From NCBI RefSeq assembly GCF_000167195.1, contig NZ_AADV02000005.1, positions 62,001 to 126,000 on the forward strand: DNA of 64,000 nt, read 5' to 3'. The position numbers were made by a program, and so were the translations under genes. This DNA comes from Crocosphaera watsonii WH 8501. GTDB taxonomy: Bacteria; Cyanobacteriota; Cyanobacteriia; Cyanobacteriales; Microcystaceae. Of the stretch, positions 4,945-57,415 are shown in pieces. The notes under the pieces were generated by a model. It was not told the origin of the DNA, did not search any database, and saw only the letters and a program-made list of their open reading frames with translations. The stretch's first letter is position 1, and the number at the start of each line of letters is the position of its first letter.

Positions 4945-6376
4945 TTGACACTCTCCTGATTCCGCTACGCTAAAATCAGGAGATTCTTCTCTCAAAGGCT
5001 CTTATCTAGCCAATCAAAGATTGACCCCGACAGAACGCCTCCAGAAGCTTCTTGATGCAGTCGCTCATGGGGGAAACCCCCAAGACCGCGCTGCATCGCA
5101 TTTTCATTCACGGGCTGCCCGACCGCTACTAATCCTCGATTTCTTATTACTTGACTCGCCGCCACATCACGATTTGTTTTATACCCACAATTAGGACAAT
5201 GATGAATTCTATTTGATAGATTCTTTTTGCCTGTTTGGGTATTACAATTAGGACAAATTTGACTGGTATAATCTTTATCTACCTTAAGAAAATAGACATC
5301 TCTTTTCCAACAAATATACGACAAGATGTTGAAAAATTGACCAAAACCAGCATCTAATGTATGCTTACCAAATAAGCCTTTAGCCCAAGCTTTGAAGTTA
5401 ATATCCTCAACAAACATCATGCCAGCTTGGTCACATAAATGATGGGCTAATTTAAAGTGCCAGTCTTTTCTAGTATCGTGGATTTTTTGATAAACTCTAG
5501 CTATTTGAGTTTGCAGTTTTTGCCAATTATTAGACCCCTTTTTCTTGTTCTTTAACCTTCTTTGCAGTGATTTCAACTTGCCATGAAGTTGATTAAAAAA
5601 CCGAGGCCTTTTGACTAATTCCCCTTCGCTAGTGGCTAAATAAGAATCAAGTCCAATATCTACCCCTAACGGATATCCCTGTATGGGTGTTTCGGGAATA
5701 TTGACAGATAACTGATAAATTAACTGTACAAAATATCCTGATGCTCGTTTAACTACCCTGATTTGTTTCAACACAAACCCATTACTGATAGGTCGAGACA
5801 TCCTCATTTTTACTTTCCCAATTTTGGGAAGTTTTACCCATCCATCACCCACCCATTCTTGCTTAACTGATGGGTAGAGAAAACTTCTCATTTTTTTCTT
5901 AAGACGTGGAAAACCAAAACCTCTTTCCCACATATTTACAAACGCAGCTTCTAAAGTTCTTAGGGTTTGCTGCAAAACTTGTGAATGGGGTTCTTTTAAT
6001 TGAGGATAGATTTTCTTGGCATCAGTTAAAGATTTACACTAAGAATTATAGGTAGGTCGTTGTTTATTCGGACTGATTATATATTCTGAGTGAATGGAAC
6101 AAAAATTGATAGGAGACTTACGACTATTTACCCAATCTTTTCTTTCTCGAAGTGCATAGTTATAGACTTTTTTGCAGGTTTCAAGATACATCTCAATCAT
6201 CTGGACTTGAGACTTTTTAGGTTTGAGCTTGAAATCGTAGGTCATCGTTATCATGCCCTCATTATAGCATACTTAATAAATGTTGCTACATTTGTTAAGT
6301 AATATTCACGGGCAATAAATTACCCGTGTTGCGCTACATCTCCCACTTAAAAGATGGGAGCTTTGCGCTGCCCGTC
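4945..6376 (-). mobile_element. IS200/IS605-group element carrying only tnpB
   Basis: The tnpB-type gene lies between two sets of subterminal hairpins rather than inverted repeats. On the right-end side the stem CTCCTGATT/AATCAGGAG is at 4953-4961/4974-4982, just after TTGACACT. On the left-end side there are hairpins CACGGG...CCCGTG (about 6308-6329) and CTCCCA...TGGGAG (about 6339-6360). No tnpA (Y1 transposase) is present, so it would need help in trans. Exact ends are estimates. Confidence 0.7.
4992..6254 (-). pseudogene. tnpB: TnpB (IS605 OrfB) RNA-guided nuclease, one in-frame TAG
   Basis: A frame of about 420 codons starts MITMTYDFKLKPKKSQ and is interrupted once, by TAG at 6039-6041, after RPTYNS. 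The same frame then continues CKSLTDAKKIYPQLK, so a Gln codon probably mutated. The RuvC-like catalytic residues remain in the second part: the Asp in GVDIGLDSYL, the Glu in FVEDINFKAW and the Asp in TNRDVAASQ. The zinc-binding CPNC...CPNCG pair is also present. The family is an RNA-guided nuclease whose guide RNA normally comes from the right end, here just below 4992. Confidence 0.85.
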
Positions 6377-14873: not shown

Positions 14874-16552
14874 AAAAGTTTCTCCAAAATTTATGCCACT
14901 TTTGACCAAGAATTTTCTGACAAATCAATAAGTTTTAGTACATAAAAATTATTTAAAGTATAATCAAAATTAATGAAAGGCGGTTTGATGAGTTCCCCTG
15001 TTCTATTATTAGTAAATAAGGACAAAAAAAGCGACAAAAACTGCCTCAGAAGTTTAGAAAGATTGACAACTAAAAATGTAATAGCAATAGATGTAATGGA
15101 GGTTTCAGGGAGTTTTGTCATCACGAGATTTAGGCTAAATCTTCGTTTAGCTTGTCCAAACTTTCCCTCAATAGCATTACGGAAGCATTCATCGGAGTGG
15201 GCTTGTTTCTTTTCTTCTTCACTGACATTTTTCGGAGGTCTTCCTAACTTCGGACCACTGATTCTTATCCCTCTTTCCTTACACCAATTTCTGTTTTCCC
15301 TAGTTCGATAAATTTTATCTACATGGACGGATTCGGGATAATAGCCAAACGTTTCTTTATACTTTTCTACTTGTTCTTTTAAATGACAAGATTCATTGAA
15401 GTTTTCCCAACTTATTTTGTCTAGAAACACATAGTTATCTACACAGCTTACTGAGAGTTTAGCTCCAAACTCTATTGGTTTTCCTGCTTTTCCCCTCACT
15501 ATTGGACGAATATGCGGTTGAGTTAAACTTACAATTCTTTGAGGAACACTCTGGGTCTTATTCTCCCACATTGACTGTTGTTGTTCATAAACTTTTTTGA
15601 TAGTCTCTAGACAATTTTTCTGTCTTTTACTCAGATTTTCCAGGGAAGCCCCAGCTTGAATTAAGTCTTCTATATTTCCTAAATTTTTCTTAAGGTATTT
15701 TAACTGTTTCCCGATAGCTTTTCTTCTTTCTTGATAAGATACTTTTCGTTTTTTAGCTACTTTTAAGTATTCCTTTCTAGCAATTATTCTAGAAGTTCTC
15801 GGCTTTTTTCTCAATTTTACTCTTAATGGTTTATCAAGATTATCTATTATTCTTTCTGTCTCAATTCTAGCTTGATTTAATATGCCTAAATCCGTTGGGT
15901 ATTTGATGTCTGCTGGCGCACAAGTCGCATCTAAAATTAGTTTACCTTTATTTTTTATTTTTTCTCCTTTTTATTGGAGACAATCCTTTTTTTTTACTTC
16001 TTTATCACTCTTGTCTATTTCTCTTTTTACTATTTTTTATTGATTTTGTTTATCAATTCTCCATCAATTCTTTTCCTAAAATGAACTAGCATTGAAGATT
16101 CCAGTGGTGGCTCTTGTTGATAACAATTTAAACCTATAAAGTATTGTAGATAGGGATTTTCTCTAATCTGTTCTATAGTTTCTCTATCACTTGTTCCTAA
16201 TTTTTCCTTAATAATTAATGTCCCTAATGCCATTCTAAATAGTTTGGCTGGCGCACCTTTTTCTGCTGAAAAAAGTTTAGCATATTCTTCCTCAAAATCA
16301 TCCCAAGGTATCAACTCTGCCATGATTACCCAACGATTATTGGGGGACAATTTGCCCTCGAAAGGTAATTCAAATTTTTCTGGGGGCGGTAAAGGTTGCT
16401 CCTCTTTTCGATACATTTGTTCTTGACCAACAACTGGGAGGTGTTTCTACCAATTATAGCGGTTTGTAGCCGACAAAGCTGATCTTTTTTGCGATCGCGA
16501 ATATGGGTGTAACCTTTTAAAGAATAGGGTTTTGCTTTTATTCAGCAAACCC
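14863..16552 (-). mobile_element. IS5/IS1182-like insertion sequence
   Basis: Matching ends GGGTTTGCTGAA (from 14863) and TTCAGCAAACCC (to 16552) are bordered by TA on both sides. About 1.69 kb, with one transposase frame on the minus strand. Unlike most IS copies here, its flanks are compatible with simple insertion into the 3' end of the HicB-like gene. The same end (TAGGGTTTGCTGAATA) reappears at 63985-64000, so a second copy starts at the window edge. Confidence 0.75.
14891..16416 (-). pseudogene. IS5/IS1182-like transposase, frameshifted
   Basis: The N-terminal DUF772-type region (MYRKEEQPLPPPEKFELPFE to SMLVHFRKRI) is in one frame, 16416-16030. The catalytic DDE region is in another, open from about 15963 down to 14891: LILDATCAPADIKYPTDL and HVDKIYRTRENRNWC, ending near YVLKLIDL. 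Moving between them needs a frameshift near the A-run at about 16032-16037 and would still meet a TAA in the linker. This copy is therefore not active. Confidence 0.75.
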
Positions 16553-18188: not shown

Positions 18189-19184
18189 CTAACTACCCCA
18201 ACGGAATACGGCAGCACCCCAAGTTAAACCAGCACCAAAACCAGAACTAGCCACAATATCCCCTGGTTTGATTTTTCCTTGTCTAACGGCTTCATCGAGG
18301 GCTAAAGGAATAGAAGCAGCAGAGGTATTGCCATATTCATCTAAATTAGCAATCACTTTCTCTCCTGGAATTTTCAGACGTTTGGCTACAGAATCGATAA
18401 TTCTTTGATTGGCTTGGTGTAGAATTAACCAGTCAATGTCATCGGTGGTTAATTGGGCGTTAAAGAGTGCTTTTTCGATGACTTCTGGCACCTTTTCCAC
18501 GGCAAAACGATAAACATCTCGTCCCTTCATGGTAATGGGTTGATAAGTGCCTTGATTGACCTTTATACCTTCTTTTAAGCCCTTATCTGTACCGTGATAA
18601 CCAAGGTTGAGAGCATCGTGTTGTTTTCCATCGCTGTACATGGCAAAACCTAACAAATTATCCTCCTCTGTAATGCCTTGACAGACAACGGCACCGGCAC
18701 CATCTCCAAAGAGAACGCAGGTGGTACGATCTGACCAATCAACCCAACGGGAAAGAATATCGGCCCCGATCACTAAGACATTTTTGTAGACTCCTGTGCG
18801 CAAAAATTGACTGGCGGTGATTAATGCAAAGACAAAACCCGAACAAGCTGCGGTTAAATCAAAAGCTACTGCCCGATTCGCTTGTAAAATGGCCTGTACT
18901 TTAGCTGCACTGCCAAAGAGATCATCGGCGGTAGATGTGGCTAAAATAATCAAATCAATATCGCCAGGAGTGAGTTGCGCCATAGCGATCGCCTGGGTGC
19001 CTGCTTGTGCCGAGAGTTCACTCAAGGATAAATCTGTGCTGGCCAAATGTCGCTTACTAATTCCGGTTCGGGTGCGAATCCATTCGTCAGATGTTTCAAC
19101 CAAAAGACTTAAATCGTCGTTGGTCATCACCTGCTCTGGTGCAGCCGAACCACAACCTATGATGCTTACCCCGATCGCTTTCAA
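18189..19184 (-). CDS. fabH: 3-oxoacyl-ACP synthase III (FabH)
   Basis: A 331-residue ketosynthase that condenses acetyl-CoA with malonyl-ACP to start type II fatty-acid synthesis. The Cys-His-Asn triad is visible: Cys in DLTAACSGFVFAL, His in LILHQANQRI and Asn in YGNTSAASIP. It is intact. It lies between plsX and fabD, as in many bacteria, but is separated from plsX by the mobile-element remnant at 19213-19790, which may change co-transcription with plsX. Confidence 0.95.
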   Translation of the reverse strand: MKAIGVSIIGCGSAAPEQVMTNDDLSLLVETSDEWIRTRTGISKRHLASTDLSLSELSAQAGTQAIAMAQLTPGDIDLIILATSTADDLFGSAAKVQAILQANRAVAFDLTAACSGFVFALITASQFLRTGVYKNVLVIGADILSRWVDWSDRTTCVLFGDGAGAVVCQGITEEDNLLGFAMYSDGKQHDALNLGYHGTDKGLKEGIKVNQGTYQPITMKGRDVYRFAVEKVPEVIEKALFNAQLTTDDIDWLILHQANQRIIDSVAKRLKIPGEKVIANLDEYGNTSAASIPLALDEAVRQGKIKPGDIVASSGFGAGLTWGAAVFRWGS

Positions 19185-19212
19185 TAACCTTTCCCCCTAA
19201 TGGTTTAGGACA

Positions 19213-19790
19213 ATAGTAGAGTTGACACTCCCTTCGACGGAGTCGAGGGATTCTTGAGCTAATCACCGCCCTTTCAAGTTTCCTCTACTTAGGTCTGACA
19301 CGATTATGTCCCATCCGAGCTTGCTAGAAGATCACTTGCTATCTAGATGCCCACTTAAGGATGGATCTCCAAGCGTTTTCCCATTTCAGGGACGATTCGG
19401 GTATGCCCTACCCTATCTGTCTTACGACAAAACCTTTTACAAGTTGTTCATTCACCGTTGTTTGTCGGTTACTGCGCTTACGGTCGCTCAGATCATTCTG
19501 AGGACACCTCAGAGTGCGCGACCTCATGTTTTACGAGGTTTTCGCTACCCTACTTTTTTGTCTCTTGTGCAGACTTTTGGGTTCTAGGGTTCAACTCAGT
19601 CGAGTCATTCACTACCGCCCTTTCGGGACTTCCACCCAGGGGATTCAAACCGTCTCTGATATGCTAACACTCGCAATTTATCCCGTCAAGAGTATATCGT
19701 GCTTCGCTGTTAATATACTTGGTCGGATTTTCATCCCGAAGGGTGAAATCTAGGGTCGAGGGTCCGACATTTTAGGATAAATCTCACTTT
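19213..19790 (-). mobile_element. ORF-less IS200/IS605-type remnant
   Basis: The left edge, TTGACACTCCC followed by the hairpin CCCTTCGAC-GGA-GTCGAGGG and GATTCTT (about 19215-19256), has the same layout as the right end of the TnpB element at 4945-4987. Towards 19790 the sequence is richer in G+C than its surroundings. It has no convincing ORF: frames such as 19306-19587 show no family and overlap one another. It sits between plsX and fabH. I read it as an internally deleted element that kept its right end and its RNA-coding part. Confidence 0.55.
19380..19770 (-). ncRNA. Candidate structured RNA (HEARO/omega-RNA-like), minus strand
   Basis: The segment is a dense series of short hairpins whose loops make sense when read on the minus strand. 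Plus-strand positions: 19380-19391, 19399-19413, 19418-19429 (minus TGTC-GTAA-GACA, a GNRA-type loop), 19474-19487, 19498-19512 (CTGAGG/CCTCAG), 19521-19539 (ACCTC/GAGGT), 19618-19627 (minus CCC-GAAA-GGG, GNRA), 19692-19718 (GTATAT/ATATAC) and 19735-19743 (CCC-TTC-GGG). IscB-type IS200/IS605 elements carry such RNAs (HEARO) upstream of the nuclease gene, which is absent here. The family assignment is inference; the structure is seen. Confidence 0.45.
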
Positions 19791-19871
19791 CCGGTGATCA
19801 ATGGATAATCACTTCTCTTTCAAAAAGAAGAGGTAATTATCCATTGTCCATTATGGATCGTCCATTGTCTA

Positions 19872-20912
19872 TTATTGTTCCACCGATGCTTTAACACCAT
19901 CGGATATAGTAGTTTTTTGAGAAGCTTTGATGCGATCTATTACTTGATTGTCGATCGCTTCTTTGGCTGAGCGAATGGCGTTAAAAATAGAGGGAGCATG
20001 AGAGCTACCATGACTAATAATACAAATACCGGCTACACCTAATAATAAGGCTCCTCCGTGTTCAGCGTGGTCGATCCTTTGTTTCAGGTTTTTCAGGTTG
20101 GGTTTGAGAATAGCTGTCCCTAATATGCCACGCCATCCTTGGGGTAGTTCTTCTCGCATGATCTGTAAAACAATTTCCCCTACTGCTTCGGCAAATTTTA
20201 AGAGTACATTGCCCACAAAACCGTCGCAAACAATAACATCAAAATTACCTGAAAGCACGTCTCGGCCTTCGGCATTACCAGCAAAGGGAATGGCTTGGTT
20301 ATTTTCCAATAATTGATAGGTGGCTAGGGCTAAATCGTTCCCTTTGCTGGATTCTTCCCCAATATTCAGTAATCCCACTTTTGGTTGCTCAACTCCCATC
20401 ACATATTGGCTGTAAATGGTTCCCATCAAGGCAAATTGTTCTAGATATTTGGGACGACAATCTACATTTGCCCCCACATCTAATACAATTACCGATTTCC
20501 CTGCTATAAGGGTGGGAAATACCGTTCCAATCGCGGGGCGATCGATGCCTTTGAGACGACCTAATCTTAGGGTGGCTGCCCCCATAGCAGCCCCAGAATG
20601 ACCGGCTGATATCACCGCATCTGCCCTATTTTTCCTGACTAAATCCATTGACACATTAATCGAGGCTTTGGGTTTGCGCCGAAGTTCACTAATCCCTTCG
20701 TGCATCTCGATCGCACCCTCTGCGTCCACGATCTCTATATTGGGGGATGGCTGATGATGTTGGAGGCACCCTTCGATGGATGGGCGATCTCCCACCAGTA
20801 AAATATCTACGTCCAACTCTTCCGATGCCCGAACCGCCCCGGCGACGATTTCTTTGGGGGCATGATCTCCCCCCATAGCGTCCACTGCAATCCTTGCTCG
20901 ATTTCCTGCCAT
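19872..20912 (-). CDS. plsX: Phosphate acyltransferase (PlsX)
   Basis: A 346-residue soluble enzyme that converts acyl-ACP to acyl-phosphate, feeding the first acylation of glycerol-3-phosphate in phospholipid and glycolipid synthesis. IAVDAMGGDHAPKEIVAGA at the N-terminus, EMHEGISELRRKPKAS and SAGHSGAAMGAATLRLGR are characteristic. ATG at 20912 gives the normal start; an upstream TTG at 20961 is in another frame. It leads the plsX-fabH-fabD cluster, now interrupted by the remnant at 19213-19790. Confidence 0.95.
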   Translation of the reverse strand: MAGNRARIAVDAMGGDHAPKEIVAGAVRASEELDVDILLVGDRPSIEGCLQHHQPSPNIEIVDAEGAIEMHEGISELRRKPKASINVSMDLVRKNRADAVISAGHSGAAMGAATLRLGRLKGIDRPAIGTVFPTLIAGKSVIVLDVGANVDCRPKYLEQFALMGTIYSQYVMGVEQPKVGLLNIGEESSKGNDLALATYQLLENNQAIPFAGNAEGRDVLSGNFDVIVCDGFVGNVLLKFAEAVGEIVLQIMREELPQGWRGILGTAILKPNLKNLKQRIDHAEHGGALLLGVAGICIISHGSSHAPSIFNAIRSAKEAIDNQVIDRIKASQKTTISDGVKASVEQ

Positions 20913-57280: not shown

Positions 57281-57374
57281 GACCTATCCTCAAAGTTAGC
57301 ATAAATTTTTTTTGCTTTGATGACCATCAAAATTAGGGGTCGAAAAGGAAGTCACCTTCCTCTCCTCCCATTCC

Positions 57375-57408
57375 GAACCGTGCGTGAGACTTTCACCTCA
57401 CACGGCTC
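57375..57408 (-). ncRNA. Group II intron domain V
   Basis: The 34-nt hairpin starts GAGCCGTGTGAGGTGAAAGT and ends CTCACGCACGGTTC. It has the catalytic AGC near its base, a two-nucleotide bulge and a GAAA loop, the standard form of domain V. Confidence 0.9.
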
Positions 57409-57415
57409 TCGGCAA

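Follow-up and report, generated by a model that had tools for sequence, protein, structure and literature searches.

The window, that is, the whole stretch of 64,000 nucleotides of Crocosphaera watsonii DNA that was analysed, carries an IS200/IS605-type element of 555 bp between the genes plsX and fabH (Table 1). The element has both of its ends and no protein gene inside; neither tnpA nor tnpB is found within it. On the minus strand it reads, in order, left end, extended -10 box, an RNA of about 430 nt and right end. Its boundaries were placed after the pattern of five related copies for which exact empty sites were found. The left end matches those of three tnpB-carrying elements (Table 1), and the right end has matches in many tnpB elements. 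One of the three, L077, is a fuller relative, having the same left end, a tnpB gene, a tnpA-like frame on the opposite strand and a right end of the same type.

A DNA search of the genome retrieved other copies of the element and, separately, short matches of both edges of the block to tnpB-carrying elements. The aligned copies have a single architecture, consisting of a left end, a conserved interior without genes and a right-end hairpin closing in GAGTGTCAA, beyond which nothing is common. Degradation or internal deletion is seen in some of the tnpB-less copies, among them those in G031 and L204. A conserved reading frame was found on neither strand among the homologues compared, and the longest stop-free stretch on the RNA strand is 40 codons. 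A 93-aa ORF on the plus strand (19306-19587) was considered as a coding sequence and rejected, because the open frames of the homologues vary in both length and frame.

Table 1. Features of the plsX-fabH element and of the window's tnpB element (positions are those of the window)
Feature	Position	Strand	Evidence or remark
plsX, upstream gene, same strand	19872-20912	-	ORF; orthologue 97.4% identical in L119
TTAT, left-end flank; target site and presumptive TAM (TTAY)	19777-19780	-	TTAC at the same place in five related empty sites
Whole tnpB-less IS200/IS605-type element	19222-19776	-	Ends common to tnpB elements and homologous tnpB-less copies; missing from the orthologous spacer of relatives
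Left-end imperfect palindrome (GTCGG...CCGAC)	19722-19768	-	Matches left ends of tnpB-carrying L016, L019 and L077
Predicted RNA promoter: extended -10-like box TGTTAGCAT	19661-19669	-	TGNTANNNT precedes the start of the RNA in most copies
5' structured domain (type A), specific to tnpB-less elements	19452-19650	-	Model R2, 148 bits, E=1.1e-27; covariation
Hairpin GAGGTCGCG...AGCGACC, an optional insertion in the 5' domain	19482-19525	-	In the window, L051, L014 and L015; other copies without it
TnpB-type omegaRNA scaffold	19222-19419	-	R1 match end to end, 46 bits, E=2.4e-10; R3, E=8.5e-5
Stem 1 hairpin GGGUA-GGGCA-UACCC, with loop GGCA (19404-19407) as the 5' strand of the pseudoknot	19399-19413	-	Helices 7 and 8, 98.8% and 100% of cells paired
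5' strand of the long-range stem, CUUGG (partner UCAAG, 19253-19257)	19369-19373	-	Helix 10 of the whole-RNA covariation
Arm CUAGA...UCUAG, conserved in many tnpB-less copies and specific to them	19324-19346	-	Helix 13 of the whole-RNA covariation
Right-end hairpin TCCCTCGAC...GTCGAAGGGA	19229-19250	-	Helix 14 of the whole-RNA covariation; common to tnpB elements
Right-end terminus GTGTCAA, with UGUC (19224-19227) as the 3' strand of the pseudoknot	19222-19228	-	GGCA/UGUC and GGCG/CGUC co-vary
Presumptive guide CUCUACUAUUGUCCUAAACC, flanking sequence of the fabH leader immediately 3' of the right end	19202-19221	-	Position is that of the guide of TnpB omegaRNAs
fabH, downstream gene, same strand	18189-19184	-	ORF; orthologues 78-92% identical in the genus
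tnpB with PF01385 and PF07282	5112-5915	-	Domain search
Right end, with the omegaRNA, of the tnpB element in the window itself (positive control)	4945-5131	-	R1, 36.9 bits

The RNA and its scaffold

The initial annotation described a block of at least nine hairpins at 19380-19770, to be read on the minus strand, in a remnant the edge of which matches the right end of the TnpB element. The minus strand is the one on which both the GUAA loop (GUC-GUAA-GAC, 19419-19428) and the GAAA loop (CCC-GAAA-GGG, 19618-19627) are tetraloops. Region 19222-19650 folds better than its shuffles on this strand (z -2.58), the result for the plus strand being less clear (z -1.73). Folding energy alone is weak evidence, and the decisive evidence is covariation. 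Over the 64 pairs of the whole RNA, 94.0% of the cells are paired, as against 81.6% in shuffles, and 36 of the pairs carry compensatory changes on both sides, as against 17.7 in the shuffles, none of 500 of which was as high. Shifting the pairing partners by one column causes a sharp drop in pairing. The hairpins are real and the minus strand is that of the RNA; covariation in homologous copies was a check that the annotation had named. The annotated interval is too short: the RNA runs from 19222 to about 19650, and the element covers 19222-19776.

The 3' part of the RNA was identified with covariance model R1, which was built from the right-end regions of 22 tnpB-carrying elements, every tnpB-less copy being left out. 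The omegaRNAs from which it was made have changes on both sides in 25 of 31 pairs (0 of 500 shuffles as high). R1 has two matches only in the 64-kb window, at 19222-19419 and at 4945-5131, the latter in the window's own tnpB element, so that one and the same model upholds the edge match noted earlier. R3, a model of the same type made without the three closest tnpB elements, also matches the scaffold of the window end to end. All 33 tnpB-less loci of the first set are matched by R1. The scaffold is of TnpB type, and the putative guide follows at its 3' end. It does not overlap the end of a tnpB gene, none being present in the element, and very few copies have tnpB-like sequence closer than about 1.5 kb.

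The right-end hairpin and GTGTCAA double as DNA ends for transposition, and part of the scaffold score could therefore reflect constraints on DNA. The features that argue for a function of the RNA are stem 1, the long-range stem, the pseudoknot and the 5' domain. The long-range stem is also present in the tnpB elements (helix 2 there), where four of its five pairs show compensatory changes. In the pseudoknot, UGUC at the 3' end, within GUGUCAA, pairs with the GGCA loop of stem 1, and an end that reads CGUC goes with a loop that reads GGCG. When the tnpB-bearing and tnpB-less sets are pooled, the GGCG/CGUC combination occurs 10 times versus 67 for GGCA/UGUC; the further cases are six of GACA/UGUC and four irregular or misread copies. 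The cells of the pseudoknot are 100% paired in both aligned sets, tnpB-bearing and tnpB-less, with switches from A-U to G-C. In the structure of the ISDra2 TnpB omegaRNA, a pseudoknot links the 3' end of the RNA to its 5' region (PMC10097598).

No Rfam family reaches its gathering score in block 19380-19770, and the HEARO model (RF02033) has no match there at E up to 5. Genome-wide, the same model finds one true HEARO on another contig with 117.5 bits, which serves as a positive control. Group I and group II introns and other ribozymes of Rfam are without a match in 19150-19900 at E up to 5. The initial annotation had counted a lack of hits to any RNA model among the findings that would tell against its reading; Rfam did yield none, but it contains no family of this kind, and the models made here match. 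A weak sucC match (E 3.1) and a match of the plastid psbA 3'UTR to the flanking palindrome 19797-19851, below its gathering score, were taken as chance.

Several other loci were noted in these searches. The genome's single HEARO adjoins an iscB gene reduced to about 109 codons (L023 1542-1868; G000:C171:7348-7573). Next to this locus (L023) lies a DDE part nearly identical to that of what is probably an interrupted IS in the window, at 14891-16416 (-), the transposase of which is in two frames (DUF772, 16030-16416; DDE, 14891-15814). A group II intron domain V/VI match is found at window positions 57332-57410 (-) with 64.1 bits.

The 5' domain and the spread of the family

Upstream of the scaffold lies a second domain of about 140-200 nt, which in type A begins with GUUUGAAUCC. 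A covariance model of this domain, R2, was made without the window sequence. It matches 47 of the 391 genomes of the order, distributed over 24 of 150 genera, and a phylum-wide sample gave nine matches, all from the same order. A TnpB-type scaffold comes after the 5' domain at nearly all of 30 R2 loci. Conversely, R2 finds no 5' domain in the tnpB-bearing loci, about 40 of which were tested. Related copies of type B are matched weakly by R2. Copies of type C, also without tnpB, have a distinct, unrelated-looking 5' domain joined to a compact scaffold of TnpB type, on which R1 scores 61-107 bits. The type C set comprises L080, L081, L082, L084-L088, L090 and L091, with a 5' domain of about 170 nt (GGTATTCAACC...TGAACCTTGAAAACTA...).

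DNA searches of relatives gave matches in 27 of 50 family genomes and in 51 of 245 genomes from the order, edge-only matches counted in. Carriers of a copy include several genomes of Microcystis and Crocosphaera. An exact-pattern scan for the arm at 19324-19346 over 84,980 species returned 21 contigs, all of them cyanobacterial. The element was not found on any plasmid or phage of the collections searched. One IMG/VR contig carries the arm motif. The description of the locus as a remnant that has lost its nuclease gene is misleading, since tnpB-less copies with a 5' domain of their own make up a mobile family present in many genera and the window copy has both ends.

An extended -10 box, TGNTANNNT, stands about 5-11 nt upstream of the conserved RNA start in most tnpB-less copies, the chance expectation from shuffled sequence being 0.51 per 420 nt; kinship of the copies inflates this signal, yet the box is common to types that differ in the left end and in the 5' domain.

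Mobility and the plsX-fabH spacer

The flanks of the five related copies, all from Microcystis, were joined and used to search the genus, and uninterrupted sites 90-99% identical to them were found. The empty sites are exact: TTAC is followed directly by the right flank, and there is no target duplication. This indicates insertion 3' of TTAC without duplication, as carried out by the TnpA of IS200/IS605 elements. It also follows that the sequence after GUGUCAA, which is the guide position, matches the empty site beside TTAC in these five copies. The sequence at this position varies between copies. By analogy, the guide of the window copy would correspond to the empty site beside its TAM. At Microcystis loci L202 and L203, a 1.7-kb insert lies at the site of the RNA-only element of L031, a few bases away; it encodes a serine-recombinase-like protein and a TnpB-like protein (IS607-type).

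The evidence for insertion of the window copy is its absence from the spacer of relatives. The plsX-fabH spacer is 125 bp long in the relative with the 97.4% identical PlsX versus 752 in the window (30-base margins included), and the element is missing from this place in eight relatives of the genus. Homologous copies occupy unrelated loci. A search of the genome for targets of the guide gave, besides its own site, one site with one mismatch and one with two, versus two control matches, which is the chance level; once the site is filled, no target is expected.

Two other features of this spacer were observed. A palindrome, CAATGGATAATC...GATTATCCATTG, and a repeated TCCATTGTCCATTAT adjoin the element (window 19797-19880) and are not present in the relatives; they are possibly another small repeat. 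In L126 (G013) the spacer is different and longer (425 versus 123-247 bases, margins included) and has palindromes like an IS605-type end as well as a structured interior, possibly a second, unrelated element without genes.

Interpretation and comparison with known systems

The locus is probably a non-autonomous IS200/IS605-type element which provides a guide RNA of TnpB type and relies in trans on TnpA and TnpB from other elements. Its sole product would be the RNA of about 430 nt, transcribed from its own predicted promoter at the -10 box, in which the TnpB-type omegaRNA scaffold forms the 3' half and a structured 5' domain of about 200 nt takes the place of the tnpB gene. TnpA of other elements would excise a single strand at TTAY and insert it elsewhere. 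The RNA would end with about 16-20 nt of flanking DNA as the guide and, judging from the biology of TnpB, would load a TnpB made by a related element. The resulting complex is expected to cut the empty site after excision, and repair would copy the element back. The probable role of the 5' domain, although this is a guess, is to stabilise or mature an RNA that does not arise by cleavage of a tnpB mRNA. Possible partners exist in the host: the genome has 80 TnpB-like matches, several of which are intact and in the right clade (PF01385 and PF07282), and Y1 transposases are present. Known omegaRNAs have neither the arm at 19324-19346 nor the 5' domain, and both could be a hindrance to TnpB.

The ends and the target site, which are those of the IS200/IS605 family, and the existence of degraded or internally deleted copies would equally suit a plain MITE- or PATE-like derivative of IS605, for which the DNA ends alone matter to TnpA and the interior is inert, having been inherited from an omegaRNA. 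This explanation is unlikely: compensatory changes extend along the entire interior in many genera and reach even the 5' domain, which lies at a distance from the right end; an inert interior would not keep them. It is more doubtful still that the omegaRNA scaffold has been reused for a partner other than TnpB, the RNA being either catalytic or bound to another protein of the host or of an element. A large conserved 5' domain found only where tnpB is absent, and the existence of several such domains (type A, the related type B and the unrelated-looking type C), would fit such reuse. Against it, the TnpB omegaRNA scaffold, the pseudoknot and the guide position are all intact, and there is no resemblance to the group I and group II introns or other ribozymes of Rfam at E up to 5.

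Kinship with HEARO, the IscB-type omegaRNA proposed in the initial annotation, was suggested by the IS605 setting and would accord with the one HEARO that stands beside an iscB fragment in this genome. It was rejected and can practically be dismissed, because the HEARO model is silent at E up to 5 and the guide-side end, the pseudoknot and the scaffold are of TnpB type. What remains of that proposal is a solitary guide-RNA-like molecule on the minus strand that could serve a nuclease in trans and that belongs to an IS605-type element lacking a nuclease gene. The annotation also held that the place between plsX and fabH could matter, and the RNA is indeed co-directional with fabH and ends inside the fabH leader. 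That it is a domesticated RNA acting in plsX-fabH-fabD expression is nevertheless very improbable: the spacer is without the element in the eight relatives, one of them with a 97% identical PlsX, and homologous copies lie at unrelated loci. A host role at plsX-fabH is not supported, because the relatives do without the window's insertion.

Beyond the non-autonomous element itself, we put at about even the chances of a broader proposal, namely that a lineage of mobile elements has kept or gained a guide RNA alone, an omegaRNA of TnpB type that is expanded by a new 5' domain, has a promoter of its own and spreads on borrowed TnpA and TnpB; in its strongest form, the 5' domain would recruit or replace a protein partner. 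If this is true, guide RNAs themselves may be units of selection, parasitic on RNA-guided nucleases, and TnpB homing would be a shared good that can be exploited by elements without a nuclease. TnpB is the ancestor of Cas12. Separation of the guide RNA from the nuclease gene is a proposed step on the way from transposon to CRISPR (PMC10097598). A widespread family with the guide RNA as a gene separate from that of the nuclease would be a natural and testable parallel to this step, and the family supplies large, well-conserved RNAs with a 5' domain. The part of the relevant literature on tnpB-less omegaRNAs that was covered holds nothing specific on a family of RNA-only elements, and its novelty is provisional.

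PATEs and MITE-like elements are non-autonomous derivatives of IS200/IS605. They resemble the element of the window in having transposon ends and a TTAY target without transposase or tnpB, but its interior is a conserved, covarying RNA and not an arbitrary sequence. IStrons combine a group I intron with parts of IS605 and likewise join a structured RNA to IS605 ends, whereas the window RNA has no group I intron match at E up to 5. The HEARO or IscB omegaRNA (RF02033) is also a non-coding guide RNA of an IS200/IS605-type element; its model is silent on the window RNA, the guide of which is at the 3' and not the 5' end. The RNA resembles the TnpB omegaRNA (reRNA), for example that of ISDra2, in its 3' scaffold, which comprises stem 1, the long-range stem, the right-end hairpin and the 3'-end pseudoknot (PMC10097598), and in having a guide directly 3' of the element. 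Unlike the TnpB omegaRNA, the window RNA overlaps no tnpB gene and has its own predicted promoter; its scaffold is 198 nt long, compared with about 131 nt in the tnpB elements, and to this it adds the arm and a 5' domain of about 200 nt.
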